Shown here in pieces: positions 4,083-61,100 of a stretch of 64,000 nucleotides of DNA (its first letter is position 1; each line of letters starts with the position of its first letter). The position numbers and the translations under genes are program-made. This stretch comes from Onchidella celtica (Eukaryota > Mollusca > Gastropoda > Systellommatophora > Onchidiidae): positions 35,833,584 through 35,897,583 of the forward strand of contig OZ007573.1 in NCBI GenBank assembly GCA_963931925.1, read 5' to 3'. The notes below the pieces were generated by a model. The model ran no database searches. It was not told the DNA's origin and saw nothing but the letters and a program-made list of their open reading frames with translations.

Positions 4083-5432
4083 TGTGATGTTTCCACTTTC
4101 TCTCACTAACTTTCTTCTGACACCAGCCGTGATGGGCACGGCACAAACACACTAAATAATCGACTATCTCTCTTCTATAAGTTATAACAAACGATATCTG
4201 TATTGCTTACATATATACAATAATTATTAATTCATTCAATAATAATAGGAACATAGGTCATACAATTTCATGTGAATTTCGATGGAATGAAGTTGATGCA
4301 AATCAGTACATGCTAATTAAATGGCTTCGTAATATTCAATCTCTAGCACATTTTATAAAACACATGGGAACATTCAGCATAAGGAAACCTCTCCTTTAGG
4401 GGTGTACGGCGCTATCTGGGCACTGGTTCTTCCTCTCTACCCTGGCTTGACTGCGCAGTTAGATCAACAGGTATCGGCAGGTACCAATAGGTCGGGAAGC
4501 CAAGAAGCCACGATGTCGTTAATCAAAGTACAAGAAGTTGAGACCAAGAAGGTGTTGTTCTTCCTCCTCTGTAGAAAAACAATCGCAAAGTCCTAATCTA
4601 CTGCTGGAAGGCATGACTTCCATACTTACTCCATGACGGATATTCATCATCAACACTTTTAACCGCTGACACTGTTATAAGTCAGGCTGCAGCTCCCATA
4701 CTCCATAGACTCCCATATAGGCAATAGAATAAACGATCAACACGGTTTTAATGATATTTACACGTTCCCCACGAAGAATAACGCTCTCTCTAACGGACCC
4801 CATCCTATAAGGTTTCGTAACATATATATAACGGCGTTTCCGTGACTCTCTCAGAGGCAGTAGTTATACTAAAGTAAACCCACTAGATTTAGGTTCTACA
4901 ATCATGAACATTAAGTAAAATACACATACATCGTACAATTAACTTACCACTCAGCAACAGCCCAAATGCCGACAAGATACCAAAGATACCACGCTCTGAC
5001 AAAGGATGTTTGCGGGTTCCCTGACCTTCCCCACTCACAAGACTAGTACAAAGTTACAGTTGCGGTTGTGGTCTCCTCTTCGGCACGAAGCTGGTGAGTG
5101 CTCTCAGCGGTCTGAAGTTGGAAGGAGCGTTCGGGGATTTATACCCAGTCAGGTAGCGTCCCAAGACGCTCACCGAGTGTACATTAGTTATCCTAATAGC
5201 CACCCCCGTCGACTCCACGTCAAATACTATTGAAACAGCTCTACCCCCCAAGCAATTCCCAGGTGATCTGATCGGCAAGTACGGCGGTCAAGTAAACACT
5301 ACCCTTTTCGGGTGTCAAAGCGCTTCAGTTGCATCGGCTACTTTCCCCCTTTGGCCTACAATAACTCTGTCTCCCCGCCGTTAGCTATCTTCCCACGCTA
5401 GCTATACCTTGCCTGTCTGTCGCCCTGTTACA
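4083..5432 (-). repeat. 3' LTR of copy 1
   Basis: Begins TGTGATGTTTCC and ends CCCTGTTACA on the plus strand, so it has TG...CA termini. It is identical by eye to 10229-11578. Confidence 0.93.
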
Positions 5433-5448
5433 ATCGCCCCCACTTAAG
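5433..5448 (-). promoter_or_regulatory. Polypurine tract, copy 1
   Basis: On the minus strand AAGTGGGGGCGAT lies directly before the 3' LTR, in the position expected for the plus-strand DNA primer of reverse transcription. The same sequence is present in copy 2. Confidence 0.6.
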
Positions 5449-5483
5449 TCGATTTTCCCTGGCAAAATCGGCTAATAAAATTA

Positions 5484-8400
5484 TTAATCTACTGGTAATC
5501 TAGATAGAGTGTCGGCCCATAGAGCGTCTCGCCCCCTGATGTTGCTGACTCGAAAGTTATATGGTTGCAGCGCCAGGTTCCATCTAGTTACCCTCGCGTT
5601 CTTCTGGTCTTTAGTTCGCATCCAAGTTAGAGGTCGGTGGTCCGTCTCTAACACGAAGTTTCTCCCATACAGATACGCCTGCAACTTACTAACGGCGAAA
5701 ACTATGGCCAGGCATTCCTTTTCAATTGTTGAGTAGTTCTTCTCCGCAGGTTTCAACTTTCTGCTAACATATACAACTGGATACTTCGTACCCTCGTCTT
5801 CTTGAAGTAGGCAGCCACTCACTCCAAGGTTAGATGCGTCCGTCTGGAGAATCAGTTCCTTGTTCCAGTCTGGCATCCGTAGTATCGGCTCGGAACTCAA
5901 ACAATTTTTTTTGGGCATTAAACGCGTTCTCCTGCGCGTGTCCCCACGCGAACTTTGTGCCCTGGGACTTCTTTGTGAGGTCTGACAACGGCGCCGAGAT
6001 TGCACTGTAATTTGGTACAAACTTCCGATAGTACCCCGTTAGCCCCAGGAAACTCCTCACTTGTGTCTTGGTCGTCGGTCGGTCACAGTCGACAATGGCT
6101 CGCACCTTACTCTCCTGCGGTCTTACAGTCCCCTGTCCCAGCTTATGGCCTAAGTACTCGACTTCTGTCATCCCTATTAGCGTCTTGGTAGGTCTAGCTT
6201 TTAAATTTGCCCGTCTCAGTCGCTCGAAGACATTCCGACAACGTTCCAAGTGGTCAGGCCAATTTGCACTGTGTATAAGACAGTCGTCTACAAATGCATC
6301 TACCCCTTCGCCAGCATCTTTTAATACTTTCCTCATGAGCCTGTTAAATGTGGCGGGGGATCCCTTCAACCCGAACGGCATGACCCTGTACTGGTATAGC
6401 CCAAACGGTGTGGCGAACGCCGTCAGGTGTTTATCTTCCTCGGCCATCGGAACTTGATAAAAGCCCTTTGTCAAGTCCAGCTTGGTGAAATATTTTGCCT
6501 CCGCTAGATTGGAAATAATGGCTTCTACCTCAGGCATCGGTTCGGCGTCATCGGCAGTCACAACATTTAGCCGCCTGTAGTCGTTGCAGAAACGATGTTG
6601 ACCATCGGGCTTCTTAACTAATACAACTGGACTATTGTACGGGGACTCGGACGGTTCGATGATTCTGGCCGCAAGCATCTTGCCTACCTCAGCATTGACA
6701 GCTTCTCTAGTTGAGTACGGTAGTTGGTAGGGTCTTACCTTCACAGGTTTTTGATCTAGCAATGGGATTTTGTGCTTGATCAGGTCAGTGAGCCCCGGTA
6801 CATCGGTAAATATATCTTTGTATTCTTCCATGAGCTCTTGCATCTGTTCTCTCTGATCCTGATCTAGCGTGTCCCCTAACTGTACATCCCTGTAGGTTTC
6901 GGTCTGTTCTAGCTTAGGCATGACTGTCTCCAGAGGCATCGAAGTCGCTTCCTCTCCTTCATCGGTCTCGTCAATTATAGCTGCAGCTATTGCCTCTGTG
7001 TTTTCCTGTTCGTCTTCCCTCTCAATATACTTCTTCAGCATATTCGCGTGATACAGTCGTCTCTTCCCCTTGACGTTCACCATGTAGTTCACTGACCCTC
7101 TCTGCTCTTCTACTTTGTAAGGCCCTTTCCAAGTCATCTGTAGTTTCGATCCGTCACTTGGGAGAAGTATGAGGACGGAATCGCCCACTTGGAATTTCCT
7201 CTGTTTGGCCCCCCTATCGTAGTATTTCTTCTGCCTGTGTTTTTCGACGCTGCTGTTCTCGGCTACGACTTTCATGGCATCCTCCAATCGTTCCCTCATA
7301 TCTACCACGTATTCGTACGATGACCTCGTTTCTGACTCCGCTTCCCCAGTCCACAGATTCTTCAGTATTGCAAGTGGTCCTCTCACAGGGTGACCGAACA
7401 CTAGTTCAAACGGCGAAAAACCTGTACTGGCCTGTGGGGTTTCGCGATACGCGAACAGCAGTGGACACAACATTCTGTCCCAGTCCTTGGGTCTGTCATG
7501 AGCTACTCGGCGAAGCATATTCTTCAGCACTCCGTTAAATCTTTCACACAGACCATTGGCCATCGCGTGGTAGGGCGAGCAGAATATCTGTTTCGTTTTG
7601 AGAAGTGCACTGACCTCTCTCATCAGCTCACCGGTAAACTGTGATCCCCTATCTGAAACTATTTCCTTTGGTATGCCTAACCGAGAAAATATTTCCATTA
7701 ACGCTTCACTGACCTGCTCAGCTGATATCCCCCTTAAGGCTACGGCATCCGGGAAACGCGTGGCATAATCTACTAGCGTCAAAATATAACGCGATCTCCC
7801 ATGTTCCGTACGCGGAAGTGGACCAACCAAATCTATGGCGACGCGCGAAAAGGGCGTGTCGATCAGGGGTGTCGGCACTAGGGGTACCTTTGTCACCCTA
7901 CCTTTATTGGATGTCCTTTGACACGCGTCACACGATCGACAGAAACGACCTACGTCCGCACCTATCCCAGGCCAAAAGAACGACTGCATTATTCTGTCCT
8001 GTGTGCGCGAAATTCCTAAGTGTCCCCCGAACACTCCTTCGTGAGCTATCTTCATCAGCTCACTTCGGTACTGCTTAGGTACCAACAACTGCTCCACATC
8101 AGCACGTCCAGCCCCGGCCTTCTTTACCCGATAGTAAATTCCCTTACTCTCCTTTATGTGAGTACCTACCTCAGCCGATTGCTCCAACGTGGCTCTCTCC
8201 CTTAAAACTCTCAAAGTTTCGTCCTCTCTCTGGGCCCGGGCTATCTCACCTGGTGTGAGTTCCCCTATCTTGGCCCCTACCCTTACCTCCTCCGTTGAGT
8301 TGCCCTTGGCCTCCTCATTATCTGTGGTCTGACTCACTTTCGCACTCGCATTCTCACACTCATGCTCTTCCTTGTCAATCTCCACCTTGCGAGATCGCGT

Positions 8401-9972
8401 GAGTACCACACTTATCTTCTCAAGAGACGCCCCCTTTATGTTTCCTATAATCAAATCGGCCACTGGGTCTTCCACTACTAGCGCTTTGAGAAGCCCAGTA
8501 TAAAATGGGGTTTCTACCCACATTTCCGCGACAGGAGCAGACCTTCTCGTCCCGTCCATCAGGACATAACTCCTGTTCTTCCCAGTTAAGCTGTTAGGAG
8601 GCAGTTTGTCCCTTTTTATAATCGCACACGTGCATCCCGTGTCACGAAGGATAGTAATCTCTTTATCCCCTATCCTCCCCTTCTCCAAAAATGGAGCGGA
8701 TAAATCATTCTCCGGAACATCGTCTTCGGGCTCATGTTCTGTCGAACCTTCTAACTCAATACTCTTACCTTCCGTCTCCCAAGAAATGAAGGTCTGTGGC
8801 CCAACACTCTGCTCAGCCCCTGGTTGAGTATTCGCCCTGCCCGATGACTCCCACTGACTGTCATCGGCTTCCTCATCGCTGGTTAGTACGACTGCGGTCG
8901 TCTCTTTCTGTCTCTTCCTACAGAATCTCGCAATATGGAGAAGTGACCCACACACAAAACAACCACGCCCACTCTCACGCTGGGACTTACCTCGGTTGTC
9001 CTCGACAGTGGCAGCAGCACCCTTCTTCGTCCTGCCCTGGTCACACTGCCTACTCAGGTGATTGGGAGAGCCACAGTTGAAGCATACCGGTTTACTCACT
9101 CCTAAACCCTTACTTCTGCTCTCCTCAACCCTCTTACCTGACTTCTGCTGTTGCTCCAGCCCTCGCTTCGACTGATGAGCCTCACTATACAAGTCCGCCA
9201 TCTCAACTAACTCATGCACGGACTTGGGGTCCCTCTCTTTCAAATATATGGAAAGATTACAGTCGACAATCTTCAACATCTGCTCCCTGACTAACAGATC
9301 CGTAATCCCTTCCATAGTTCTCTCTGCCTCTGAGAGGTCTACCCACCTCTCAAAATATCTCTGCAATCTCACGGACAGCTGCGTATAAGTTTCGTCCTTA
9401 TCTAGACGACTCTCCCTAAACTTACGCCTATAACCCTCTGCCGTGAGGTGATACTTCTTGAACAACACCTTCTTTACCTTCTCGTAATCCCTACTGTCTT
9501 CATCGCTGAGACCGGAATAAACATCTAACGCCCTGCCAGTTAACAATGCCCCTAACATGTCTGCCCAGGTGTCTTCTTCCCAATCATTTGCCTGCGCGAG
9601 CCTTTCAAATCTTTTCAAATACGAGTCGAGATCCTCGCGCGAGTCATCAAAAATGGCAATTTTAGGTACCTTCGGGGCAGCAGATTTTCCATTCCCTTTA
9701 CCATTGTGACACCCGTTTTTGGCTAGTTCCCGTTCGCATTCCATTCTCTCCCTTTCAAATTGTCTTTCCTTCTCCTTTTCTTCTCGTTCGCGCTCCTTTT
9801 CTTCTCGTTCGCGCTCCTTTTCTTCTCGTTCGATAGCCCTTTGTTCTCGGTTTTGGGCTTTCTCTTCGTCCCACCTAATTTTGAATTCCTCATCACTAAT
9901 GCCTTCTTGTCTGGAAAGCTTCAGTGCGCCCAGATAGTCCATCAGCAATTGACCTGTAAACAAAGCTAACAA
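5484..9972 (-). pseudogene. gag-pol: Gag-Pol polyprotein of copy 1, frameshifted between RT and RNase H
   Basis: The first frame (9972-5830, 1380 codons) covers a Glu/Arg-rich coiled coil (about residues 35-80), a Gag capsid-like region, two CX2CX4HX4C zinc knuckles, and a protease with DTG. It continues through integrase (HHCC, then D,D-35-E), a GPY/F module, and RT through the connection segment. A single extra T in the run at about 5909-5916 then shifts the frame. RNase H (DAS, ETDHRPL and ADTLSRL motifs) continues in another frame at 6020-5484 and ends at the same stop as copy 2. The coiled coil has two more copies of a 7-residue RE-REEKE unit than copy 2. Other differences from copy 2 are scattered substitutions, including Cys for Gly after the integrase catalytic Glu. 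Translation would yield a product lacking RNase H. I recognise the domains by motif only. Confidence 0.92.
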
Positions 9973-11093
9973 TAAAGCGTGGATCGTAACTGTGAAGTTA
10001 ACAACAATATTCCTGCAATAGCAAACAACAATTTTCTCTGTGACAAAAGATAAAATTGAACAGTCAATGCACAGGTAAAATCAGAGCATGTCGCAGGCAC
10101 TAAATGTCAATCTCTCTCACTCGCCTCAGGGCAGATGACCTGTCCACACAATCACACAATAGCCCCTTGACACGACCCAGATCAAAATTAAATGTTATTT
10201 ACTAGCAGGATCCCACTTCTGACACCATTGTGATGTTTCCACTTTCTCTCACTAACTTTCTTCTGACACCAGCCGTGATGGGCACGGCACAAACACACTA
10301 AATAATCGACTATCTCTCTTCTATAAGTTATAACAAACGATATCTGTATTGCTTACATATATACAATAATTATTAATTCATTCAATAATAATAGGAACAT
10401 AGGTCATACAATTTCATGTGAATTTCGATGGAATGAAGTTGATGCAAATCAGTACATGCTAATTAAATGGCTTCGTAATATTCAATCTCTAGCACATTTT
10501 ATAAAACACATGGGAACATTCAGCATAAGGAAACCTCTCCTTTAGGGGTGTACGGCGCTATCTGGGCACTGGTTCTTCCTCTCTACCCTGGCTTGACTGC
10601 GCAGTTAGATCAACAGGTATCGGCAGGTACCAATAGGTCGGGAAGCCAAGAAGCCACGATGTCGTTAATCAAAGTACAAGAAGTTGAGACCAAGAAGGTG
10701 TTGTTCTTCCTCCTCTGTAGAAAAACAATCGCAAAGTCCTAATCTACTGCTGGAAGGCATGACTTCCATACTTACTCCATGACGGATATTCATCATCAAC
10801 ACTTTTAACCGCTGACACTGTTATAAGTCAGGCTGCAGCTCCCATACTCCATAGACTCCCATATAGGCAATAGAATAAACGATCAACACGGTTTTAATGA
10901 TATTTACACGTTCCCCACGAAGAATAACGCTCTCTCTAACGGACCCCATCCTATAAGGTTTCGTAACATATATATAACGGCGTTTCCGTGACTCTCTCAG
11001 AGGCAGTAGTTATACTAAAGTAAACCCACTAGATTTAGGTTCTACAATCATGAACATTAAGTAAAATACACATACATCGTACAATTAACTTAC
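9954..11093 (-). promoter_or_regulatory. Possible 5' leader intron of copy 1 (LTR donor to gag acceptor)
   Basis: On the minus strand a strong donor GTAAGT lies in the LTR at 11093-11088, about 190 bp downstream of a TATA box. A good acceptor (CTTTGTTTACAG) ends at 9954, just inside the long ORF. Splicing would remove the primer site and the first Met codon, leaving the second in-frame Met (MDYLG) as the start. The arrangement is conserved in copy 2. This is inference without transcript data. Confidence 0.35.
10210..10227 (-). promoter_or_regulatory. Primer binding site, tRNA-Leu-like, copy 1
   Basis: The 18 nt TGGTGTCAGAAGTGGGAT (minus strand) starts one base after the 5' LTR. It is complementary to the 3' end, with CCA, of an animal leucine tRNA as I recall it (acceptor ending TTCTGACA). 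Copy 2 has the identical site. Confidence 0.75.
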
Positions 11094-11578
11094 CACTCAG
11101 CAACAGCCCAAATGCCGACAAGATACCAAAGATACCACGCTCTGACAAAGGATGTTTGCGGGTTCCCTGACCTTCCCCACTCACAAGACTAGTACAAAGT
11201 TACAGTTGCGGTTGTGGTCTCCTCTTCGGCACGAAGCTGGTGAGTGCTCTCAGCGGTCTGAAGTTGGAAGGAGCGTTCGGGGATTTATACCCAGTCAGGT
11301 AGCGTCCCAAGACGCTCACCGAGTGTACATTAGTTATCCTAATAGCCACCCCCGTCGACTCCACGTCAAATACTATTGAAACAGCTCTACCCCCCAAGCA
11401 ATTCCCAGGTGATCTGATCGGCAAGTACGGCGGTCAAGTAAACACTACCCTTTTCGGGTGTCAAAGCGCTTCAGTTGCATCGGCTACTTTCCCCCTTTGG
11501 CCTACAATAACTCTGTCTCCCCGCCGTTAGCTATCTTCCCACGCTAGCTATACCTTGCCTGTCTGTCGCCCTGTTACA
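10229..11578 (-). repeat. 5' LTR of copy 1
   Basis: Contains the element promoter. On the minus strand TATAAAT lies at 11289-11283 in a GC-richer context, with the presumed start site 25-30 bp downstream. The end ACA at 11578 is followed by the CCGCT duplication. Confidence 0.93.
11283..11289 (-). promoter_or_regulatory. TATA box in the 5' LTR of copy 1
   Basis: TATAAAT on the minus strand, conserved in all four LTRs. The equivalent position in copy 2 is 40717-40723. Confidence 0.6.
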
Positions 11579-23105: not shown

Positions 23106-23710
23106 TAATAACAATCAAAACAAATACATCGTAGAACCAGAAATTAGTCACCCATGGCCACAAGAGCTTCACGCACGATGCACATTTTGAGAAACTCTGG
23201 TCCGATGAGTAATATTAAATACTTGACCTACATTCAGATTTCGTCAGTTTTTGACATACATGTATGTAGTTCTCGTCATGCAGGTAAGAGCTCATAGCTT
23301 TCATTTTAACTCAGGTTTTTAAAAAAAAAGGGGGGGGGGAGGGGGGACAAAAATTAGAGGCTCTCCCCGATTCTGCATTCCCGAGCAGTGAGTAAATAGA
23401 TGATATTAAGAGTTCTGACGTAGTGCTCATTTTTCAAACGACCAGATTAATACAGTAGCACCAGTCCTGTTCCTCTACCAGGCCCGTGAAAAGCCGGCGA
23501 AAGGCCCATGCCAGATGGGAAATGTAGCCACCCCCCCCACCCCCCCCCCCCCCATTTCAAACTGTTATTTTTGGTTCAATGTAATAAAAGATACATAAAT
23601 AATTTTTGGAACATAATTATTATTAGATTTTAATCACCATATCTTCTGCACTTATTTACCTACAGATTATCTGTATAGATCTCTAATGTAGGTCCCATTT
23701 CAACCTGCTC
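23106..23710. other. Intergenic; poly-G (23330-23348) and poly-C (23531-23553) runs
   Basis: No gene-like feature. Confidence 0.45.
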
Positions 23711-23714
23711 ATTA

Positions 23715-24078
23715 GGTACTTTTGTTTTAGTAATTATATAAGAAAGAGATTCATATGGGTACTTTTGTTTTAGTAATGTAAGAAAGAGATTCATATGGGT
23801 ACTTTTGTTTTTGTAATATAAGAAAGAGATTCATATGGGTACATTTGTTTTTGTAATATAAGAAAGAGATTCATATGGGTACTTTTGTTTTAGTAATATA
23901 AGAAAGAGATTCATATAGGTACTTTTGTTTGAGTAATATAAGAAAGAGATACATATAGGTACTTTTGTTTGAGTAATATAAGAAAGAGATACATATAGGT
24001 ACTTTTGTTTGAGTAATATAAGAAAGAGATACATATAGGTACTTTTGTTTGAGTAATATAAGAAAGAGATACATATTA
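23715..24078. repeat. 40-bp minisatellite, about 9 units
   Basis: The unit is AGAAAGAGATTCATATGGGT plus ACTTTTGTTTTAGTAATATA. Early units carry TTCATATGGG and later ones TACATATAGG, so the array has two sub-types arranged in blocks. The hydrophobic minus-strand ORFs are the repeat in translation. Confidence 0.95.
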
Positions 24079-26804: not shown

Positions 26805-27335
26805 TAAAAAGTTAAAGAAAGAACAAAGGAGTTCAAACAGCACACAGTACATTCGAATGATAGAAAACAAATTATCATTTTAAGGGGAAGTTAAAAAATG
26901 AAAGAAAGAACAAAGGAGTTCAAACAGCACAGAGTACATTCGAATGACAGATAACAAATTATCATTTTAAGGGGAAGTTAAAAAATGAAAGAAAGAACAA
27001 AGGAGTTCAAACAGCACAGAGTACATTCGAATGACAGATAACAAATTATCATTTTAAGGGGAAGTTAAAAAATGAAAGAAAGAAGAAAGGAGTTCAAACA
27101 GCACAGAGTACATTGGAATGACAGAAAACAAATTATCATTTTAAGGAGAAGTTAAAAAATGAAAGAAAGAAGAAAGGAGTTCAAACAGCACAGAGTACAT
27201 TCGAATGACAGATAACAAATTATCATTTTAAGGGGAAGTTAAAAAATGAAAGAAAGAACAAAGGAGTTCAAACAGCACAGAGTACATTCGAATGACAGAA
27301 AACAAATTATCATTTTAAGGGGAAGTTAAAAAAAA
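26805..27335. repeat. 87-bp minisatellite, about 6 units
   Basis: The unit contains GAAAGAAAGAACAAAGGAGT, CAAACAGCACAGAGTACATT and CATTTTAAGGGGAAGTTAAA. Copies differ at only a few sites (GAACAAAGG or GAAGAAAGG; GATAACAA or GAAAACAA), so expansion is recent. Confidence 0.95.
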
Positions 27336-33520: not shown

Positions 33521-33525
33521 GAGGG
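33521..33525. other. Target-site duplication GAGGG, left, copy 2
   Basis: GAGGG precedes the LTR start and is repeated at 41043-41047. The surrounding sequence is G-rich, so some chance match is possible, but the length and position are as expected. Confidence 0.85.
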
Positions 33526-34907
33526 TGTGATGTTTCCACTTTCCCTCACTAACTTTCTTCTGACACCAGCCGTGATGGGCACGGCACAAACACACTAAAT
33601 AATCGACTATCTCTCTTCTATAAGTTATAACAAACGATATCTGTATTGCTTACATATATACAATAATTATTATTTCATTCAATAATAATAGGAACATAGG
33701 TCATACAATTTCATGTGAATTTCGATGGAATGAAGTTGATGCAAATCAGTACATGCTAATTAAATGGCTTCGTAATATTCAATCTCTAGCACATTTTATA
33801 AAACACATGGGAACATTCAGCATAAGGAAACCTCTCCTTTAGGGGTGTATGGCGCTATCTGGGCACTGGTTCTTCCTCTCTACCCTGGCTTGACTGCGCA
33901 GTTAGATCAACAGGTATCGGCAGGTACCAATAGGTCGGGAAGCCAAGAAGCCACGATGTCGTTAATCAAAGTACAAGAAGTTGAGAAGCCAAGAAGGTGT
34001 TGTTCTTCCTCCTCTGTAGAAAAACAATCGCAAAGTCCTAATCTACTGCTGGAAGGCATGACTTCCATACTTACTCCATGACGGATATTCATCATTAACA
34101 CTTTTAACCGCTGACACTGTTATAAGTCAGGCTGCAGCTCCCATACTCCATAGGCTCCCATATAGGCAATAGAACAAACGCTCAATACAGTTTTAATGAT
34201 ATTTACACGTTCCCCACGAAGAATAACGCTCTCTCTAACAGACCCCATCCCATAAGGTTTCGTAACATATATATAACGGCGTTTCCGTGACTCTCTCAGA
34301 GGCAGTAGTTATACCAAAGTAAACCCGCTAGATTTAGGTTCTACAATCATGAACATTAAGTAAAATACACATACATCGTACAATTAACTTACCACTCAGC
34401 AACAGCCCAAATGCCGACAAGATACCAAAGATACCACGCTCTGACAAAGGATGTTTGCGGGTTCCCTGACCTTCCCCACTCACAAGACTAGTACAAAGTT
34501 ACAGTTGCGGTTGTGGTCTCCTCTTCGGCACGAAGCTGGTGAGTGCTCTCAGCGGTCTGAAGTTGGAAGGAGCGTTCGGGGATTTATACCCAGTCAGGTA
34601 GCGTCCCAAGACGCCCACCGAGTGTGCATTAGTTATCCTAATAGCCACCCCCGTCGACTCCACGTCAAATACTATTGAAACAGCTCTACCCCCCAAGCAA
34701 TTCCCAGGTGATCTGATCGACAAGTACGGCGGTCAAGTAAACACTACCCTTTTCGGGTGTCAAAGCGCTTCAGTTGCATCCCATACTTTTCCCCTCTAGC
34801 CTACAATAACTCTGTCTCCCCGCCGTTAACTATCTTCCCACGCTAGTTATAGGCACAATATTATTATAACTACTAGTTATACCTTGCCAATCTATCGCCC
34901 TGTTACA
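33526..34907 (-). repeat. 3' LTR of copy 2
   Basis: TGTGATGTTTCC ... CCCTGTTACA, 1382 bp, identical by eye to 39661-41042. Confidence 0.95.
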
Positions 34908-34923
34908 ATCGCCCCCACTTAAG
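34908..34923 (-). promoter_or_regulatory. Polypurine tract, copy 2
   Basis: AAGTGGGGGCGAT on the minus strand abuts the 3' LTR, identical to copy 1. Confidence 0.6.
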
Positions 34924-34958
34924 TCGATTTTCCCTGGCAAAATCGGCTAATAAAATTA

Positions 34959-37900
34959 TTAATCTACTGGTAATCTAGATAGAGTGTCGGCCCATAGAGC
35001 GTCTCGCCCCCTGATGTTGCTGACTCGAAAGTTATATGGTTGCAGCGCCAGGTTCCATCTAGTTACCCTCGCGTTCTTCTGGTCTTTAGTTCGCATCCAA
35101 GTTAGAGGTCGGTGGTCCGTCTCTAACACGAAGTTTCTCCCATACAGATACGCCTGCAACTTACTAACGGCGAAAACTATGGCCAGGCATTCCTTTTCAA
35201 TTGTTGAGTAGTTCTTCTCCGCAGGTTTCAACTTTCTGCTAACATATACAACTGGATACTTCGTACCCTCGTCTTCTTGAAGTAGGCAGCCACTCACTCC
35301 AAGGTTAGATGCGTCTGTCTGGAGAATCAGTTCCTTGTTCCAGTCTGGCATCCGTAGTATCGGCTCGGAACTCAAACAAATTTTTAGGGCATTGAACGCG
35401 TTCTCCTGCGCGTGTCCCCACGCGAACTTTGTGCCCTGGGACTTCTTTGTGAGGTCTGACAACGGCGCCGAGATTGCACTGTAATTTGGTACAAACTTCC
35501 GATAGTACCCCGTTAGCCCCAGGAAACTCCTCACTTGTGTCTTGGTCGTCGGTCGGTCACAGTCGACAATGGCTCGCACCTTACTCTCCTGCGGTCTTAC
35601 AGTCCCCTGTCCCAGCTTATGGCCTAAGTACTCGACTTCTGTCATCCCTATTAGCGTCTTGGTAGGTCTAGCTTTTAAATTTGCCCGTCTCAGTCGCTCG
35701 AAGACATTCTGACAACGTTCCAAGTGGTCAGGCCAATTTGCACTGTGTATAAGACAGTCGTCTACAAATGCATCTACCCCTTCGCCAGCATCTTTTAATA
35801 CTTTCCTCATGAGCCTGTTAAATGTGGCGGGGGATCCCTTCAACCCGAACGGCATGACCCTGTACTGGTATAGCCCAAACGGTGTGGCGAACGCCGTCAG
35901 GTGTTTATCTTCCTCGGCCATCGGAACTTGATAAAAGCCCTTTGTCAAGTCCAGCTTGGTGAAATATTTTGCCTCCGCTAGATTGGAAATAATGGCTTCT
36001 ACCTCAGGCATCGGTTCGGCGTCATCGGCAGTCACAACATTTAGCCGCCTGTAGTCGTTGCAGAAACGATGTTGACCATCGGGCTTCTTAACTAATACAA
36101 TTGGACTATTGTACGGGGACTCGGACGGTTCGATGATTCTGGCCGCAAGCATCTTGCCTACCTCAGCCTTGACAGCTTCTCTAGTTGAGTACGGTAGTTG
36201 GTAGGGTCTTACCTTCACAGGTTTTTGATCTAGCAATGGGATTTTGTGCTTGATCAGGTCAGTGAGCCCCGGTACATCGGTAAATATATCTTTGTATTCT
36301 TCCATGAGCTCTTGCATCTGTTCTCTCTGATCCTGATCTAGCGTGTCCCCTAACTGTACATCCCTGTAGGTTTCGGTCTGTTCTAGCCTAGGCATGACTG
36401 TCTCCAGAGGCATCGAAGTCGCTTCCTCTCCTCCATCGGTCTCGTCAATTATAGCTGCAGCTATTGCCTCTGTGTTTTCCTGTTCGTCTTCCCTCTCAAT
36501 ATACTTCTTCAGCATATTCGCGTGATACAGTCGTCTCTTCCCCTTGACGTTCACCATGTAGTTCACTGACCCTCTCTGCTCTTCTACTTTGTAAGGCCCT
36601 TTCCAAGTCATCTGTAGTTTCGATCCGTCACTTGGGAGAAGTATGAGGACGGAATCGCCCACTTGGAATTTCCTCTGTTTGGCCCCCCTATCGTAGTATT
36701 CCTTCTGCCTGTGTTTTTCGACGCTGCTGTTCTCGGCTACGACTTTCATGGCATCCTCCAATCGTTCCCTCATATCTACCACGTATTCGTACGATGACCT
36801 CGTTTCTGACTCCGCTTCCCCAGTCCACAGATTCTTCAGTATTGCAAGTGGTCCTCTCACAGGGTGACCGAACACTAGTTCAAACGGCGAAAAACCTGTA
36901 CTGGCCTGTGGGGTTTCGCGATACGCGAACAGCAGTGGACCCAACATTCTGTCCCAGTCCTTGGGTCTGTCATGAGCTACTCGGCGAAGCATATTCTTCA
37001 GCACTCCGTTAAATCTTTCACACAGACCATTGGCCATCGCGTGGTAGGGCGAGCAGAATATCTGTTTCGTTTTGAGAAGTGCACTGACCTCTCTCATCAG
37101 CTCACCGGTAAACTGTGATCCCCTATCTGAAACTATTTCCTTTGGTATGCCTAACCGAGAAAATATTTCCATTAACGCTTCACTGACCTGCTCAGCTGAT
37201 ATCCCCCTTAAGGCTACGGCATCCGGGAAACGCGTGGCATAATCTACTAGCGTCAAAATATAACGCGATCTCCCATGTTCCGTACGCGGAAGTGGACCAA
37301 CCAAATCTATGGCGACGCGCGAAAAGGGCGTGTCGATCAGGGGTGTCGGCACTAGGGGTACCTTTGTCACCCTACCTTTGTTGGATGTCCTTTGACACGC
37401 GTCACACGATCGACAGAAACGACCTACGTCCGCACCTATCCCAGGCCAAAAGAACGACTGCATTATTCTGTCCTGTGTGCGCGAAATTCCTAAGTGTCCC
37501 CCGAACACTCCTTCGTGAGCTATCTTCATCAGCTCACTTCGGTACTGCTTAGGTACCAACAACTGCTCCACATCAGCACGTCCAGCCCCGGCCTTCTTTA
37601 CCCGATAGTAAATTCCCTTACTCTCCTTTATGTGAGTACCTACCTCAGCCGATTGCTCCAACGTGGCTCTCTCCCTTAAAACTTTCAAAGTTTCGTCCTC
37701 TCTCTGGGCCCGGGCTATCTCACCTGGTGTGAGTTCCCCTATCTTGGCCCCTACCCTTACCTCCTCCGTTGAGTTGCCCTTGGCCTCCTCATTATCTGTG
37801 GTCTGACTCACTTTCGCACTCGCATTCTCACACTCATGCTCTTCCTTGTCAATCTCCACCTTGCGAGATCGCGTGAGTACCACACTTATCTTCTCAAGAG

Positions 37901-39404
37901 ACGCCCCCTTTATGTTTCCTATAATCAAATCGGCCACTGGGTCTTCCACTACTAGCGCTTTGAGAAGCCCAGTATAAAATGGGGTTTCTACCCACATTTC
38001 CGCGACAGGAGCAGACCTTCTCGTCCCGTCCATCAGGACATAACTCCTGTTCTTCCCAGTTAAGCTGTTAGGAGGCAGTTTGTCCCTTTTTATAATCGCA
38101 CACGTGCATCCCGTGTCACGAAGGATAGTAATCTCTTTATCCCCTATCCTCCCCTTCTCCAAAAATGGAGCGGATAAATCATTCTCCGGAACATCGTCTC
38201 CGGGCTCATGTTCTGTCGAACCTTCTAACTCAATACTCTTACCTTCCGTCTCCCAAGAAATGAAGGTCTGTGGCCCAACACTCTGCTCAGCCCCTGGTTG
38301 AGTATTCGCCCTGCCCGATGACTCCCACTGACTGTCATCGGCTTCCTCATCGCCGGTTAGTACGACTGCGGTCGTCTCTTTCTGTCTCTTCCTACAGAAT
38401 CTCGCAATATGGAGAAGTGACCCGCACACAAAACAACCACGCCCACTCTCACGCTGGGACTTACCTCGGTTGTCCTCGACAGTGGCAGCAGCACCCTTCT
38501 TCGTCCTGCCCTGGTCACACTGCCTACTCAGGTGATTGGGAGAGCCACAGTTGAAGCATACCGGTTTACTCACTCCTAAACCCTTACTTCTGCTCTCCTC
38601 AACCCTCTTACCTGACTTCCGCTGTTGCTCCAGCCCTCGCTTCGACTGATGAGCCTCACTATATAAGTCCGCCATCTCAACTAACTCATGCACGGACTTG
38701 GGGTCCCTCTCTTTCAAATATATGGAAAGATTACAGTCGACAATCTTCAACATCTGCTCCCTGACTAACAGATCCGTAATCCCTTCCATAGTTCTCTCTG
38801 CCTCTGAGAGGTCTACCCACCTCTCAAAATATCTCTGCAATCTCACGGACAGCTGCGTATAAGTTTCGTCCTTATCTAGACGACTCTCCCTAAACTTACG
38901 CCTATAACCCTCTGCCGTGAGGTGATACTTCTTGAACAACACCTTCTTTACCTTCTCGTAATCCCTACTGTCTTCATCGCTGAGACCGGAATAAACATCT
39001 AACGCCCTGCCAGTTAACAATGCCCCTAACATGTCTGCCCAGGTGTCTTCTTCCCAATCATTTGCCTGCGCGAGCCTTTCAAATCTTTTCAAATACGAGT
39101 CGAGGTCCTCGCGCGAGTCATCAAAAATGGCAATTTTAGGTACCTTCGGGGCAGCAGATTTTCCATTCCCTTTACCATTGTGACACCCGTTTTTGGCTAG
39201 TTCCCGTTCGCATTCCATTCTCTCCCTTTCAAATTGTCTTTCCTTCTCCTTTTCTTCTCGTTCGATAGCCCTTTGTTCTCGGTTTTGGGTTTTCTCTTCG
39301 TCCCACCTAATTTTGAATTCCTCATCACTAATGCCTTCTTGTCTGGCAAGCTTCAGTGCGCCCAGATAGTCCATCAGCAATTGACCTGTAAACAAAGCTA
39401 ACAA
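34959..39404 (-). CDS. gag-pol: Gag-Pol polyprotein, order Gag-PR-IN-RT-RNaseH
   Basis: An intact 1481-residue polyprotein. In order it has a Glu/Arg-rich coil (about 35-70), a Gag capsid-like helical region (about 90-255), and zinc knuckles CX2CX4HX4C at C283-C296 and C324-C337. Next come a retropepsin with DTG at 430-432 and LIIG near 493, and integrase with H630, H637, C667, C670 and catalytic D700, D760, E796 (D,D-35-E). A GPY/F module (W934-Y938) follows. RT then has LVKKPDG, the LDLTKGF Asp at 1152 and FVDD at 1213-1216; RNase H has D1364, a Glu near 1403, and TDHRPL at 1429-1434. It ends soon after ADTLSRL with nothing beyond RNase H. Normal Ty3/Gypsy Pol has integrase last; here it is before RT. 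The enzymes would copy the element RNA and insert the DNA. The first Met is used here, but a leader intron could make Met11 the start. Confidence 0.96.
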   Translation of the reverse strand: MLALFTGQLLMDYLGALKLARQEGISDEEFKIRWDEEKTQNREQRAIEREEKEKERQFERERMECERELAKNGCHNGKGNGKSAAPKVPKIAIFDDSREDLDSYLKRFERLAQANDWEEDTWADMLGALLTGRALDVYSGLSDEDSRDYEKVKKVLFKKYHLTAEGYRRKFRESRLDKDETYTQLSVRLQRYFERWVDLSEAERTMEGITDLLVREQMLKIVDCNLSIYLKERDPKSVHELVEMADLYSEAHQSKRGLEQQRKSGKRVEESRSKGLGVSKPVCFNCGSPNHLSRQCDQGRTKKGAAATVEDNRGKSQRESGRGCFVCGSLLHIARFCRKRQKETTAVVLTGDEEADDSQWESSGRANTQPGAEQSVGPQTFISWETEGKSIELEGSTEHEPGDDVPENDLSAPFLEKGRIGDKEITILRDTGCTCAIIKRDKLPPNSLTGKNRSYVLMDGTRRSAPVAEMWVETPFYTGLLKALVVEDPVADLIIGNIKGASLEKISVVLTRSRKVEIDKEEHECENASAKVSQTTDNEEAKGNSTEEVRVGAKIGELTPGEIARAQREDETLKVLRERATLEQSAEVGTHIKESKGIYYRVKKAGAGRADVEQLLVPKQYRSELMKIAHEGVFGGHLGISRTQDRIMQSFFWPGIGADVGRFCRSCDACQRTSNKGRVTKVPLVPTPLIDTPFSRVAIDLVGPLPRTEHGRSRYILTLVDYATRFPDAVALRGISAEQVSEALMEIFSRLGIPKEIVSDRGSQFTGELMREVSALLKTKQIFCSPYHAMANGLCERFNGVLKNMLRRVAHDRPKDWDRMLGPLLFAYRETPQASTGFSPFELVFGHPVRGPLAILKNLWTGEAESETRSSYEYVVDMRERLEDAMKVVAENSSVEKHRQKEYYDRGAKQRKFQVGDSVLILLPSDGSKLQMTWKGPYKVEEQRGSVNYMVNVKGKRRLYHANMLKKYIEREDEQENTEAIAAAIIDETDGGEEATSMPLETVMPRLEQTETYRDVQLGDTLDQDQREQMQELMEEYKDIFTDVPGLTDLIKHKIPLLDQKPVKVRPYQLPYSTREAVKAEVGKMLAARIIEPSESPYNSPIVLVKKPDGQHRFCNDYRRLNVVTADDAEPMPEVEAIISNLAEAKYFTKLDLTKGFYQVPMAEEDKHLTAFATPFGLYQYRVMPFGLKGSPATFNRLMRKVLKDAGEGVDAFVDDCLIHSANWPDHLERCQNVFERLRRANLKARPTKTLIGMTEVEYLGHKLGQGTVRPQESKVRAIVDCDRPTTKTQVRSFLGLTGYYRKFVPNYSAISAPLSDLTKKSQGTKFAWGHAQENAFNALKICLSSEPILRMPDWNKELILQTDASNLGVSGCLLQEDEGTKYPVVYVSRKLKPAEKNYSTIEKECLAIVFAVSKLQAYLYGRNFVLETDHRPLTWMRTKDQKNARVTRWNLALQPYNFRVSNIRGRDALWADTLSRLPVD

Positions 39405-40527
39405 TAAAGCGTGGATCGTAACTGTGAAGTTAACAACAATATTCCTGCAATAGCAAACAACAATTTTCTCTGTGACAAAAGATAAAATTGAACAGTCAAT
39501 GCACAGGTAAAATCAGAGCATGTCCCGGGCACTAAATGTCAATCTCTCTCACTCGCCTCAGGGCAGATGACCTGTCCACACAATCACACAATAGCCCCTT
39601 GACACGACCCAGATCAGAATTAAATGTTATTTACTAGCAGGATCCCACTTCTGACACCATTGTGATGTTTCCACTTTCCCTCACTAACTTTCTTCTGACA
39701 CCAGCCGTGATGGGCACGGCACAAACACACTAAATAATCGACTATCTCTCTTCTATAAGTTATAACAAACGATATCTGTATTGCTTACATATATACAATA
39801 ATTATTATTTCATTCAATAATAATAGGAACATAGGTCATACAATTTCATGTGAATTTCGATGGAATGAAGTTGATGCAAATCAGTACATGCTAATTAAAT
39901 GGCTTCGTAATATTCAATCTCTAGCACATTTTATAAAACACATGGGAACATTCAGCATAAGGAAACCTCTCCTTTAGGGGTGTATGGCGCTATCTGGGCA
40001 CTGGTTCTTCCTCTCTACCCTGGCTTGACTGCGCAGTTAGATCAACAGGTATCGGCAGGTACCAATAGGTCGGGAAGCCAAGAAGCCACGATGTCGTTAA
40101 TCAAAGTACAAGAAGTTGAGAAGCCAAGAAGGTGTTGTTCTTCCTCCTCTGTAGAAAAACAATCGCAAAGTCCTAATCTACTGCTGGAAGGCATGACTTC
40201 CATACTTACTCCATGACGGATATTCATCATTAACACTTTTAACCGCTGACACTGTTATAAGTCAGGCTGCAGCTCCCATACTCCATAGGCTCCCATATAG
40301 GCAATAGAACAAACGCTCAATACAGTTTTAATGATATTTACACGTTCCCCACGAAGAATAACGCTCTCTCTAACAGACCCCATCCCATAAGGTTTCGTAA
40401 CATATATATAACGGCGTTTCCGTGACTCTCTCAGAGGCAGTAGTTATACCAAAGTAAACCCGCTAGATTTAGGTTCTACAATCATGAACATTAAGTAAAA
40501 TACACATACATCGTACAATTAACTTAC
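39386..40527 (-). promoter_or_regulatory. Possible 5' leader intron of copy 2
   Basis: GTAAGT donor in the LTR (40527-40522) and acceptor TTTGTTTACAG ending at 39386, the same as in copy 1. If spliced, the exon starts within codon 7 of the long ORF and the next in-frame Met is residue 11. Confidence 0.35.
39642..39659 (-). promoter_or_regulatory. Primer binding site, tRNA-Leu-like, copy 2
   Basis: TGGTGTCAGAAGTGGGAT, one base from the 5' LTR; identical to copy 1. Confidence 0.75.
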
Positions 40528-41042
40528 CACTCAGCAACAGCCCAAATGCCGACAAGATACCAAAGATACCACGCTCTGACAAAGGATGTTTGCGGGTTCC
40601 CTGACCTTCCCCACTCACAAGACTAGTACAAAGTTACAGTTGCGGTTGTGGTCTCCTCTTCGGCACGAAGCTGGTGAGTGCTCTCAGCGGTCTGAAGTTG
40701 GAAGGAGCGTTCGGGGATTTATACCCAGTCAGGTAGCGTCCCAAGACGCCCACCGAGTGTGCATTAGTTATCCTAATAGCCACCCCCGTCGACTCCACGT
40801 CAAATACTATTGAAACAGCTCTACCCCCCAAGCAATTCCCAGGTGATCTGATCGACAAGTACGGCGGTCAAGTAAACACTACCCTTTTCGGGTGTCAAAG
40901 CGCTTCAGTTGCATCCCATACTTTTCCCCTCTAGCCTACAATAACTCTGTCTCCCCGCCGTTAACTATCTTCCCACGCTAGTTATAGGCACAATATTATT
41001 ATAACTACTAGTTATACCTTGCCAATCTATCGCCCTGTTACA
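39661..41042 (-). repeat. 5' LTR of copy 2
   Basis: Contains the TATAAAT promoter element at 40723-40717 (minus). Its end is followed by GAGGG at 41043-41047. Confidence 0.95.
40717..40723 (-). promoter_or_regulatory. TATA box in the 5' LTR of copy 2
   Basis: TATAAAT, conserved in all LTRs of the family. Confidence 0.6.
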
Positions 41043-41047
41043 GAGGG
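41043..41047. other. Target-site duplication GAGGG, right, copy 2
   Basis: Matches 33521-33525. Confidence 0.85.
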
Positions 41048-41296: not shown

Positions 41297-41652
41297 AGTC
41301 AAAACTGGCAAAAAGAAAAAGTTGTATGTAGCAAAGCCTAGCGTAAGAAATAATACCCAAACGATACAAGAAAATGTAAATGAAAAAGGGAATACAAAAA
41401 ATACCGATATTTCCGTTACAACCATTGTCAAGGAAAAAAAACCCAACAGCCACAGAAAAAAAATTGGAAAGTTGAACAGATAAATTTGTTTGTTTGTTTT
41501 TTTCCTTGGCAAAGTTTTTAACTGAAATATCGGTATCTTTTGTCTTCTCTTTTTCTTTTCGTTTTATTCTAGGCCTATCGTTTGGGTATTATTTCTTAGG
41601 CTAGGCTTTGCTACGTACAACTTTTTCTTTTTGCCAAATTTTGACCCTATCA
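41297..41652. repeat. Foldback element, arms about 145 bp
   Basis: The left arm (41297-41446) is the reverse complement of the right arm (41490-41652) at roughly 85-90% by eye. Landmarks include GGCAAAAAGAAAAAGTTGTA, GTAGCAAAGCCTA, AATAATACCCAAACGATA, ACCGATATTTC and CAAGGAAAAAAAAC. The loop is about 45 bp. The transcript would fold into a long hairpin. A single-arm relative lies at 2655-2795, so the unit is dispersed. Confidence 0.7.
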
Positions 41653-58910: not shown

Positions 58911-61100
58911 CTAGCTGACTTCCCCGTTCTACGAACGGGGTGGATGACATGCAGGGACATTATACACACACACACAACTGTCATTCAGTACCCCCATGAC
59001 ATTTTTCTTACCTTGTCTTGTCAGTTCTGGAGAACTTCTCTGTAGACCACATTTTCTGTGTGAAGAGAGCTGTTTCCCGTTAACAATCTCACAGAGTCCC
59101 TGGAGCCAACACGGCTCATGGCCACGTATAACTGTCCATGTGAAAAAAAAAGGCTGCTGCACATGAATGCCAATTTTTGTCAAAGTCTGTCCTTGTGACT
59201 TGTTTGCTGTGATGGCAAAGGCCAGTCGGACAGGAAACTGTTTCCGTTTCATTTGAAATGGGAATATGTTGTCTGATGGCACAATTGGGATGCGAGGAAT
59301 GAACAACTGTTTCCCAGCATGGGGTCCACATGCTATTTCAGCATCGATGATATGCTCATGTAGGTTCTGGACTGTGTAGCGAGTCCCATTGCAATGTCCA
59401 TTTGCAGGATCTAAGTTGCGCAGCAGTATGATAATACTGTTTTTCTTCAGCATCAGTTTGTGAGGTGGCATACCCGAGGGACACAATGAGTTTATAAACT
59501 CTAGGTGGTACTGGTGCTCATTTTCTTCCACTGAATCGTGACTTCTATATAATTTTGTTTCGCCAGGTAATTTCTCCAAAATTTTGCCATTTAGTTCATC
59601 AACATCCTTGTTTGTTGGACAAATGATTGAACGTGACGCCAGCCAATCAGAGTCATTATAGTTTTCTTCCATACCTCCGAATACAAAATCCAACAGCTCT
59701 TGTTCACTTTTCACTGTCATATCTTCAGGGAGTTTCATGGCAAATTCGCTAATACTTTTATCCACCAACTGTGTCCCATCACCGATGCTCAGCAGGTAGT
59801 CTGAAAATTCTGTTGATTCACCCGACAAAGCAACCCTCATATTTTCTTTCAGCTGATACACACTTACTTTGCCCCATAAATATGAAGACTTCAATGTTGC
59901 ATCAACAATCTGAGGTCTGGCTCCATGACGAACAACAGGTAGTATTTGGCGCCAATCACCGGCAAGCAGCACTGTGATACCCCCAAATGGTGACTCATTC
60001 CCATGTAGATCCTGCAAGTAAGTGCAAGGTTCTGTCCACAGCTTCAAAAATGTGCTTATTTCCCATTGATATTTCATCAACTATCAGCAGTTCAGTTTTG
60101 CGAAGTAACATGCCAGTCGCATCACGGGGAGAAACATTGCACATTGAGGTTTCATTGATGATGAGTGGAACTTTGCATCTGCTGTGTAGTGTTCTCCCAT
60201 TTGATAACAAAGTTGCTGCAATTCCTGACAGAGCTGTAGCCAGAGCAATTTTCTTGTGTGCGCGCACAGAATCAAGAATCAGGTTAATAGTGTGAGTTTT
60301 TCCAGTTCCTCCACTGGCATCCAGAGCAAAGATCTTTCCATATCTATTGAGAACTGAGTCCATTACTGCATCAAAAACTACTTTCTGTTGCCTATTAAGT
60401 TTTGGATATTCATTGTGGACTTTGTCTCTGAGCGCATCACAATTCTGATTCATTTCCTCGAAGATGATTGTCGGCATTCCATCTTGATATCTTTCTCTCT
60501 CTGCTTTCGGCAGCTGAAAATCCTTGTCGAAAAGTAGTCCTTCGTGATCAAGTATTTCTTGAAGGTAGATCAGTACCTGATTTTCAATGATGTTGCTGAG
60601 CTGATCAGTATTGTGTTGCCTCATAACACCCCTACACAGTTCCATTTTATGTCTGTTCCAGAACTCTAGAGGATTTGCTGGTCTGTTGTAAATTAAGATT
60701 GCAGCCTTGGCCTTGGGTCAACAGCACCTTCCACAAAAGTAGTAGCATTAAGAGCAAGTCCACATGTTGGCTCTCTTTTTCGTTGTCTAGGTCTATTTTC
60801 TACTATTTCAATCTCATTTTCTAGATCTAGGTGTTGACGATGCCTGACCCTCTCCTCCTCCTGAACTCTTCCAGTGTCTTCTAGCCTATCCCTCTCCTGA
60901 GCTCTTATATTGTCTTGTCTACGCGTTCTAGGAGAAAAGCAGGTACGATTGCTCTTCCTAGGCATTGTGCAACATTTATCTGGTCTATCACATGTTGCCA
61001 CTGTTATTTACTAAATTTTATAGAGTAGATCTAACCTGAATAACATCACTGCACGCCTCACATTCACATGCAACCAAGTTTACTTGAAAAAAAGCTAACA
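58911..61100 (-). mobile_element. Helitron, internally deleted and frameshifted (H1)
   Basis: The minus strand carries a Helitron N-terminal leader, a PIF1-like helicase and an exact 3' terminus. That terminus is hairpin CCCCGTTC-GTA-GAACGGGG (58940-58922), 7 nt, then CTAG at 58914-58911 followed by T. The replication-initiator (HUH) region is absent: helicase sequence follows the leader within about 50 bp. The 5' end (TC) could not be fixed and is given roughly. Helitrons replicate by a rolling-circle route and make no target duplication, consistent with none being seen. Confidence 0.8.
59021..61001 (-). pseudogene. Helitron RepHel remnant: leader plus PIF1-like helicase, Rep missing
   Basis: Read in three segments. 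Segment 1 (61001-60693, 102 codons) is a basic, Arg/Glu/Gln-rich leader containing MPRKSNR, typical of Helitron protein starts. Segment 2 (about 60720-60015) begins AILIYNRPANPLEFWNRHK and holds Walker A GGTGKT (near 60312-60295), LSGIAATLL and Walker B IVDEIS. Segment 3 (about 60030-59021) is in another frame. It has GGITVLLAGDWRQILPVV, ITANKSQGQTL and, after a further one-base shift in the A9 run at 59143-59151, YVAMSRVGSRDSVRLL and a stop at 59023-59021. At least three frame disruptions plus loss of the HUH nuclease make it non-functional. A host PIF1 gene is less likely, because the stop lies only about 110 bp from the Helitron terminus. Confidence 0.82.

Follow-up and report, generated by a model that had tools for sequence, protein, structure and literature searches.

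The Gmr1 clade of Ty3/Gypsy long terminal repeat (LTR) retrotransposons, with integrase (IN) placed ahead of reverse transcriptase (RT), reportedly goes back to work by Goodwin and Poulter in 2002. We analysed an integrase-first LTR retrotransposon on the minus strand of a 64,000-nucleotide stretch of the genome of Onchidella celtica (OZ007573.1, positions 35,833,584 to 35,897,583; hereafter the window), and compared it with the elements described so far. As far as the accessible portions of the published texts go, four crustacean elements were called the first Gmr1-like elements in protostomes in 2013 (PMC3587641), the annelid element LGF3 was assigned to the Gmr1 family in 2021 (PMC8220671), and Gmr1 was counted among the clades present in several phyla, but was absent from the annelid data of that same study (PMC8556966). 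By the same portions, fish Gmr families carry a gag-pol of 1506-1634 amino acids and, in four families, LTRs of 337-518 bp (PMC11117352). The SCAN domain was found in more than 50% of Gmr elements, and in Gmr elements only, in frog (PMC4131045), and homology is described between it and the C-terminal capsid of Gag in Gmr1-like elements (PMC4592553). A 2018 survey of molluscs listed six known Gypsy clades (C, A, B, CsRN1, Cigr-1 and Tor2) together with 16 clusters, MolGy, called likely new mollusc-specific Gypsy clades; in the available part of its text, Gmr1 is mentioned only as an unusual integrase-first clade and not among the mollusc clades (PMC6238403).

No report of a mollusc Gmr1 element was found in the open-licence literature, judged mostly on titles and the openings of abstracts; in mollusc papers that came up under the name and were looked at more closely, the text concerned consisted of DOI strings or labels of pearl experiments. 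The integrase-first arrangement itself is already known and its protostome range is not new; the mollusc is a host for which no report was found. We conclude with high confidence from the sequence that the window element belongs to the Gmr1-type Ty3/Gypsy LTR retrotransposons, that its host is a mollusc, and that it is young and was probably mobile in recent times. Its parts, all on the minus strand, are as follows.

33526..41042, minus: complete LTR retrotransposon, 7517 bp, delimited by LTR pair, target-site duplication and coding frame
39661..41042, minus: 5' LTR, 1382 bp, TG...CA, with TATAAA at LTR position 320
33526..34907, minus: 3' LTR, 1382 bp, TG...CA
41043..41047, minus: target-site duplication CCCTC, 5' side, read from the sequence
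33521..33525, minus: target-site duplication CCCTC, 3' side, read from the sequence
39642..39659, minus: primer binding site TGGTGTCAGAAGTGGGAT, 1 base past the 5' LTR, complementary to the tRNA-Leu 3' end plus CCA
34908..34920, minus: polypurine-tract candidate AAGTGGGGGCGAT, directly adjoining the 3' LTR upstream
34959..39404, minus: gag-pol open reading frame, 1481 codons from TTG
38643..38912, minus: Gag capsid, SCAN-type domain, residues 165-254 (PF02023, 1.9e-11, 44.1 bits, cut-off 27)
38394..38558, minus: two CCHC zinc knuckles, from CFNC 283 and CFVC 324
37905..38117, minus: aspartic protease, DTG at residue 430 and LIIGN at 493 (motifs only)
36501..37556, minus: integrase with HHCC, DDE core and GPY/F (PF17921, Integrase_H2C2, 1.4e-19; PF00665, rve, 1e-12)
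35613..36092, minus: reverse transcriptase, FVDD 1213 (PF00078, RVT_1, 1.3e-32)
35034..35420, minus: RNase H, last domain of the frame (PF17917, RT_RNaseH, 2e-37; PF17919, 3.5e-35)

The domain order along the frame is Gag, protease, IN, RT and RNase H, with nothing coding after RNase H. Pfam was run on separate pieces of the frame, and the finding of IN matches upstream and RT and RNase H matches downstream is far beyond chance. The IN motifs were located at HEGV 630 and CDAC 667 (HHCC), D700, D760 and E796 (D,D-35-E) and GPY 936, and those of RNase H at QTDAS 1362 (D1364) and TDHRP 1429. The first zinc knuckle was recognized by Pfam (zf-CCHC, 3.8e-08), the second being known from sequence alone, and the protease region gave no Pfam match. 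The SCAN region matched weakly in sequence to the solved PEG3 SCAN-region chain (E 0.0053). In-frame ATG codons begin at residue 11 (39374), and none occurs between the TTG and the nearest in-frame stop on its upstream side, so that the ATG at 39374 is the likely translation start. These results bear out the initial annotation, which had described one uninterrupted 1481-codon frame with integrase motifs ahead of RT and RNase H at these positions, and a protein ending at RNase H. The LTRs, the target duplication, the primer site, the SCAN-type Gag and a further copy of the element are additions to that annotation. A second integrase downstream of RNase H, named there as an outcome that would contradict it, was looked for and is absent, because only ~50 bp separate the stop from the 3' LTR. 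Within the same ~50 bp no env frame was found downstream of pol, and the element thus lacks this mark of a retrovirus or errantivirus.

Integrase ahead of RT is the order of Copia elements (PMC6238403, in its accessible part), and the element might on that ground be taken for one of them. In the search against solved structures, however, RT-RNase H matched the Ty3 RT-RNase H in PDB 4ol8 at 3.6e-79 and integrase matched the Ty3 integrase in PDB 7q5b at 1.8e-29, and the only Pfam models for RT and RNase H that matched were RVT_1 and the two RT_RNaseH models, with no Copia-type RT among them. As RT-RNase H is Ty3/Gypsy-like, the integrase-first order is not due to Copia ancestry, in agreement with the initial annotation. 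A Copia origin was rejected on the RT, RNase H and integrase matches, and we give it next to no probability.

The ends of the element were then compared. The 5' and 3' LTRs show 0 differences in 1382 bases end to end; identical LTRs, target duplication and open frame, the marks of a recently inserted LTR retrotransposon, are all present. A sequence of 12 bases of the primer site, TGGTGTCAGAAG, recurs within the LTR at position 1340, ~40 bases from the LTR end (window ~39703 and ~33568, minus). The assignment of the primer to tRNA-Leu was examined in the host genome, where a 20-base pattern of the tRNA end occurs at 10 exact places, against 0 for the reversed control. ARAGORN called tRNA-Leu(CAG) at two of nine further pattern places, with 3' ends matching the primer site, and Met with an intron at another, which by eye looks like tRNA-Leu(CAA) with an intron. 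At the other six of the nine (L094, L095, L096, L097, L098 and L101) ARAGORN called no tRNA. These six carry the tRNA-Leu 3'-end letters without a called gene, CCA being present in five of them, and may belong to tRNA-derived repeats or to the primer sites of other LTR elements. Neither the window nor the primer-site match read first, a tRNA-like fragment, gave a tRNA by ARAGORN.

The element occurs a second time in the window.

4083..11578, minus: second copy, 7496 bp, gag-pol frame broken near the 3' end (RNase H region)

This copy has 1350-bp LTRs identical to each other, a 5-bp duplication AGCGG and the same orientation as the element at 33526-41042. The beginning of its LTR differs from that of the other copy, and both LTR types, of ~1350 and 1382 bp, occur among six fetched copies. 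Copies were searched in the host assembly (1.14 Gb, 43 contigs) with a 200-residue RT piece, and at least 150 matches at 99-100% identity were obtained, the window copy included; this is a lower bound, the 150 scored matches being the best of 12917 first-look candidates. Open frames of at least 1480 codons hold 126 of these 150 best-matching RT copies, and the other 24 are not so held (hand count). The two LTRs of each element were aligned over their whole length for the two window copies and for six more fetched from the best 150. No difference was seen in seven of these eight pairs (1350-1382 bases), and the remaining pair has 1 mismatch in 1382. Clear 5-bp duplications were read in seven of the eight copies, the other one lying within a C-run where none is readable, and the AAGTGGGGGCGAT letters ahead of the 3' LTR are present in all six fetched copies. 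The near-identical LTR pairs suit very recent insertion, and such likeness could also be kept by gene conversion.

The same domain order was found in other families of this genome. In eight pieces (L001-L008, L005 being the window copy itself) the order is IN, RT, RNase H without exception. Among the best 30 of 150 scored loci of the H2C2 model (L013-L042, ~3.2 kb each), RT follows IN in 19 and precedes it in none, 11 having no RT match within the piece; Gag and/or protease stand ahead of integrase in 29, and in L017 nothing matches before integrase. The integrases of 26 of these loci (L016, L023, L031 and L034 being too broken) were clustered into two large families, B and C, and a single locus, D (L029). 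For the rve model, 30 loci were fetched of 150 scored, and RT stands ahead of integrase in 28, integrase being alone in two; the clusterable RT rows of these loci, with two larger pieces, fell into five integrase-last groups. Seven larger pieces comprise two of the integrase-first type that span Gag through RNase H (L078 in family B, L079 in family C), four of the integrase-last type, and one with RNase H and then integrase only. As both arrangements were found among the loci, the genome holds both orders. Three integrase-first families are present, the window family A, B and C. D is likely a fourth, its order being deduced because no RT was seen in L029. The truncated Gag piece of family B scored 22.5 bits with SCAN, below the cut-off of 27, the family B piece L019 consists of integrase and not Gag, and the family C piece L079, which begins late in Gag, gave no match.

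A mosaic origin, in which a Gypsy RT-RNase H was joined by recombination to the integrase of another element to give the Copia-like order, was examined by separate trees of the two parts. The trees hold 9-14 rows, taken from the host genome plus Ty3, with some long branches. In the RT-RNase H tree (12 rows) the three integrase-first rows lie on one side of a branch with support 96/95, and in the integrase tree (14 rows) the four integrase-first rows do so with 84/90; after removal of near-copies the values were 94/95 (9 rows) and 80/87 (10 rows). In both trees, then, a branch sets A, B and C apart from the other rows. Approximately unbiased (AU) tests were made on pairs chosen after the first trees were known. 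Holding the window element with the integrase-last L074 was rejected for RT (p-AU 0.0015) and IN (0.0039), and holding it with the integrase-last L048 was rejected for both (p-AU below 1e-36). The integrase furthermore retains the HHCC, DDE and GPY/F layout, which is usual for Gypsy integrases. The two trees being concordant, these rows show no RT/IN recombination; a placing of the two parts in different clades, which the initial annotation had counted as contradicting it, did not appear. A shared history of RT and IN, as in a Gmr1-like element, is indicated for these rows, with moderate support on the IN side. A mosaic origin is favoured by that moderate support and by the fact that a Ty3 partner was not rejected for the integrase, and on balance we consider it very improbable.

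Several observations weigh against the Gmr1-type reading. Support for the integrase-first group in the integrase tree is moderate (80-84), holding the window IN with Ty3 was not rejected (p-AU 0.074), and the rejection was marginal for RT (p-AU 0.038). The Gag of family C exceeds the SCAN cut-off of 27 with 29.1 bits, but Retrotrans_gag scores higher (33.4), and PNMA reaches 21.9 bits, below its cut-off of 25. Between the two window copies dN/dS (the ratio of nonsynonymous to synonymous rates) is 0.90 on only 23 differences, which gives no indication of purifying selection. The counts of open frames and matching LTRs overstate how young and intact the family is overall, because the scored 150 are the best of the 12917 candidates and the six fetched copies were drawn from those. 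Membership of the Gmr1 clade is drawn from domain order and SCAN, the trees being made up of rows from this genome and Ty3.

This last point bears on a further alternative, a mollusc Gypsy lineage that gained the integrase-first order independently and is unrelated to Gmr1. It would accord with the make-up of the trees and with the 16 likely new mollusc-specific Gypsy clades in the accessible text of the survey (PMC6238403). The SCAN-type Gag, however, is a second, separate mark agreeing with Gmr1 (PMC4131045 and PMC4592553, as far as available), and the single gag-pol frame of ~1500 codons resembles that of fish Gmr, 1506-1634 in the consulted portion of PMC11117352. We regard an independent origin as unlikely, and favour the Gmr1-type reading. 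Three features of Gmr1-like elements were found together in the window element, namely a pol in which integrase precedes RT, an RT and RNase H of Gypsy type, and a SCAN-type Gag. Of the assignment in the initial annotation, the integrase-first order and the Gmr1-like architecture stood, and the mollusc host, which it had put as a condition, is supported; the suggestion that a protostome host would make the range notable is weakened, since crustacean (PMC3587641) and annelid (PMC8220671) elements precede, by the accessible text of both. By tblastn, no relatives were detected in IMG/VR viral contigs or GTDB genome contigs, as expected of collections without animal genomes.

From established knowledge of LTR retrotransposons, the LTR would drive one RNA, from which a single Gag-PR-IN-RT-RNaseH polyprotein (PR, protease) would be made and then cut by its own protease. 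Gag and Pol lie in one frame, without a frameshift to keep Gag above Pol. The SCAN-type capsid would form the particle, and tRNA-Leu would prime cDNA synthesis. Integrase would be excised from the middle of the polyprotein, not from its end, and its insertion of the cDNA would leave the 5-bp duplication. The integrase-first order was probably inherited from an ancestor common to several families of this genome, and not rearranged in this copy. The many near-identical, open-framed copies make a family suited to studying the processing of an integrase-first polyprotein.

We further propose, tentatively and at slightly less than an even chance, that the three or four families form an undescribed mollusc branch of Gmr1 that is a major expanding Gypsy lineage of this genome. 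If this holds, together with the crustacean, annelid and vertebrate members, the integrase-first order and SCAN-type capsid would have arisen once, before the protostome/deuterostome split, and the Gag that gave rise to vertebrate SCAN proteins would predate vertebrates. The domain order is invisible to surveys based on RT-RNase H alone.

Several copies are arranged in tandem. Same-strand copies 6094-6147 bp apart were observed at C3:17391823, C4:70449807, C5:22872179 and C6:10235113, a spacing close to the summed length of the internal part and a single LTR (6135 bp in the window element), as in tandem arrays; these may stem from assembly, from tandem cDNA or from unequal recombination. Other families form arrays of this kind too, for example seven matches 8108 bp apart on C13. 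The open frame around an RNase H match at C2:54934712-54935023 runs to 3057 codons, double the usual length. Elsewhere in the window, nested inverted repeats with 66- and 63-nt arms lie at 41301-41641, just outside the 5' LTR, and overlap a 128-codon frame. Tandem repeats were noted at 26805-27333 (87-bp unit) and 23709-24076 (40-bp unit). Two overlapping frames at 58929-60645 (minus) resemble a Pif1-type helicase by eye, and belong perhaps to a Helitron.

The nature of the host was also examined from its genome. The hemocyanin domain PF14830, which we take to be a mollusc marker, gave 33 matches, all above the cut-off and clustered on one contig (C7). For one hemocyanin exon the best matches were hemocyanin chains of solved structures, including KLH1, a form of the limpet protein KLH, and tyrosinases matched weakly. 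In 14 control genomes PF14830 gave no match; those identified are prokaryotes, and this control cannot separate animal phyla for that reason.

Comparison with known systems places the element as follows, the cited likenesses and differences being those in the accessible parts of the sources. It shares with Gmr1-like elements the integrase upstream of RT, the Gypsy-type RT-RNase H and the SCAN-type Gag, and differs from those known in its mollusc host, the likeness being drawn from architecture. Yeast Ty3 has homologous RT-RNase H and integrase (PDB 4ol8, 7q5b), but its integrase (1087-1449) follows RT-RNase H (611-1008) in the same chain. Fish Gmr families likewise have a single gag-pol frame of ~1500 codons, but their LTRs measure 337-518 bp against 1350-1382 bp here (PMC11117352). 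The crustacean GyRex4, Gychoro2, GyMaja1 and GyLiva4 are also from protostome hosts and were described as related to the Gmr1 clade; GyRex4 is represented by RT/RNaseH domains and GyRex5 by an integrase piece, in contrast to the complete element here (PMC3587641). The annelid LGF3 groups with Gmr1 in the RT, RNase H and IN trees of its own study, and counts fewer than 25 elements (PMC8220671), whereas the family here is large and young, and two or more further integrase-first families accompany it in this genome. Among the hosts in which Gmr1-like elements are known, the window element closes a gap, and it shows SCAN-type capsid and integrase-first order together in a mollusc.

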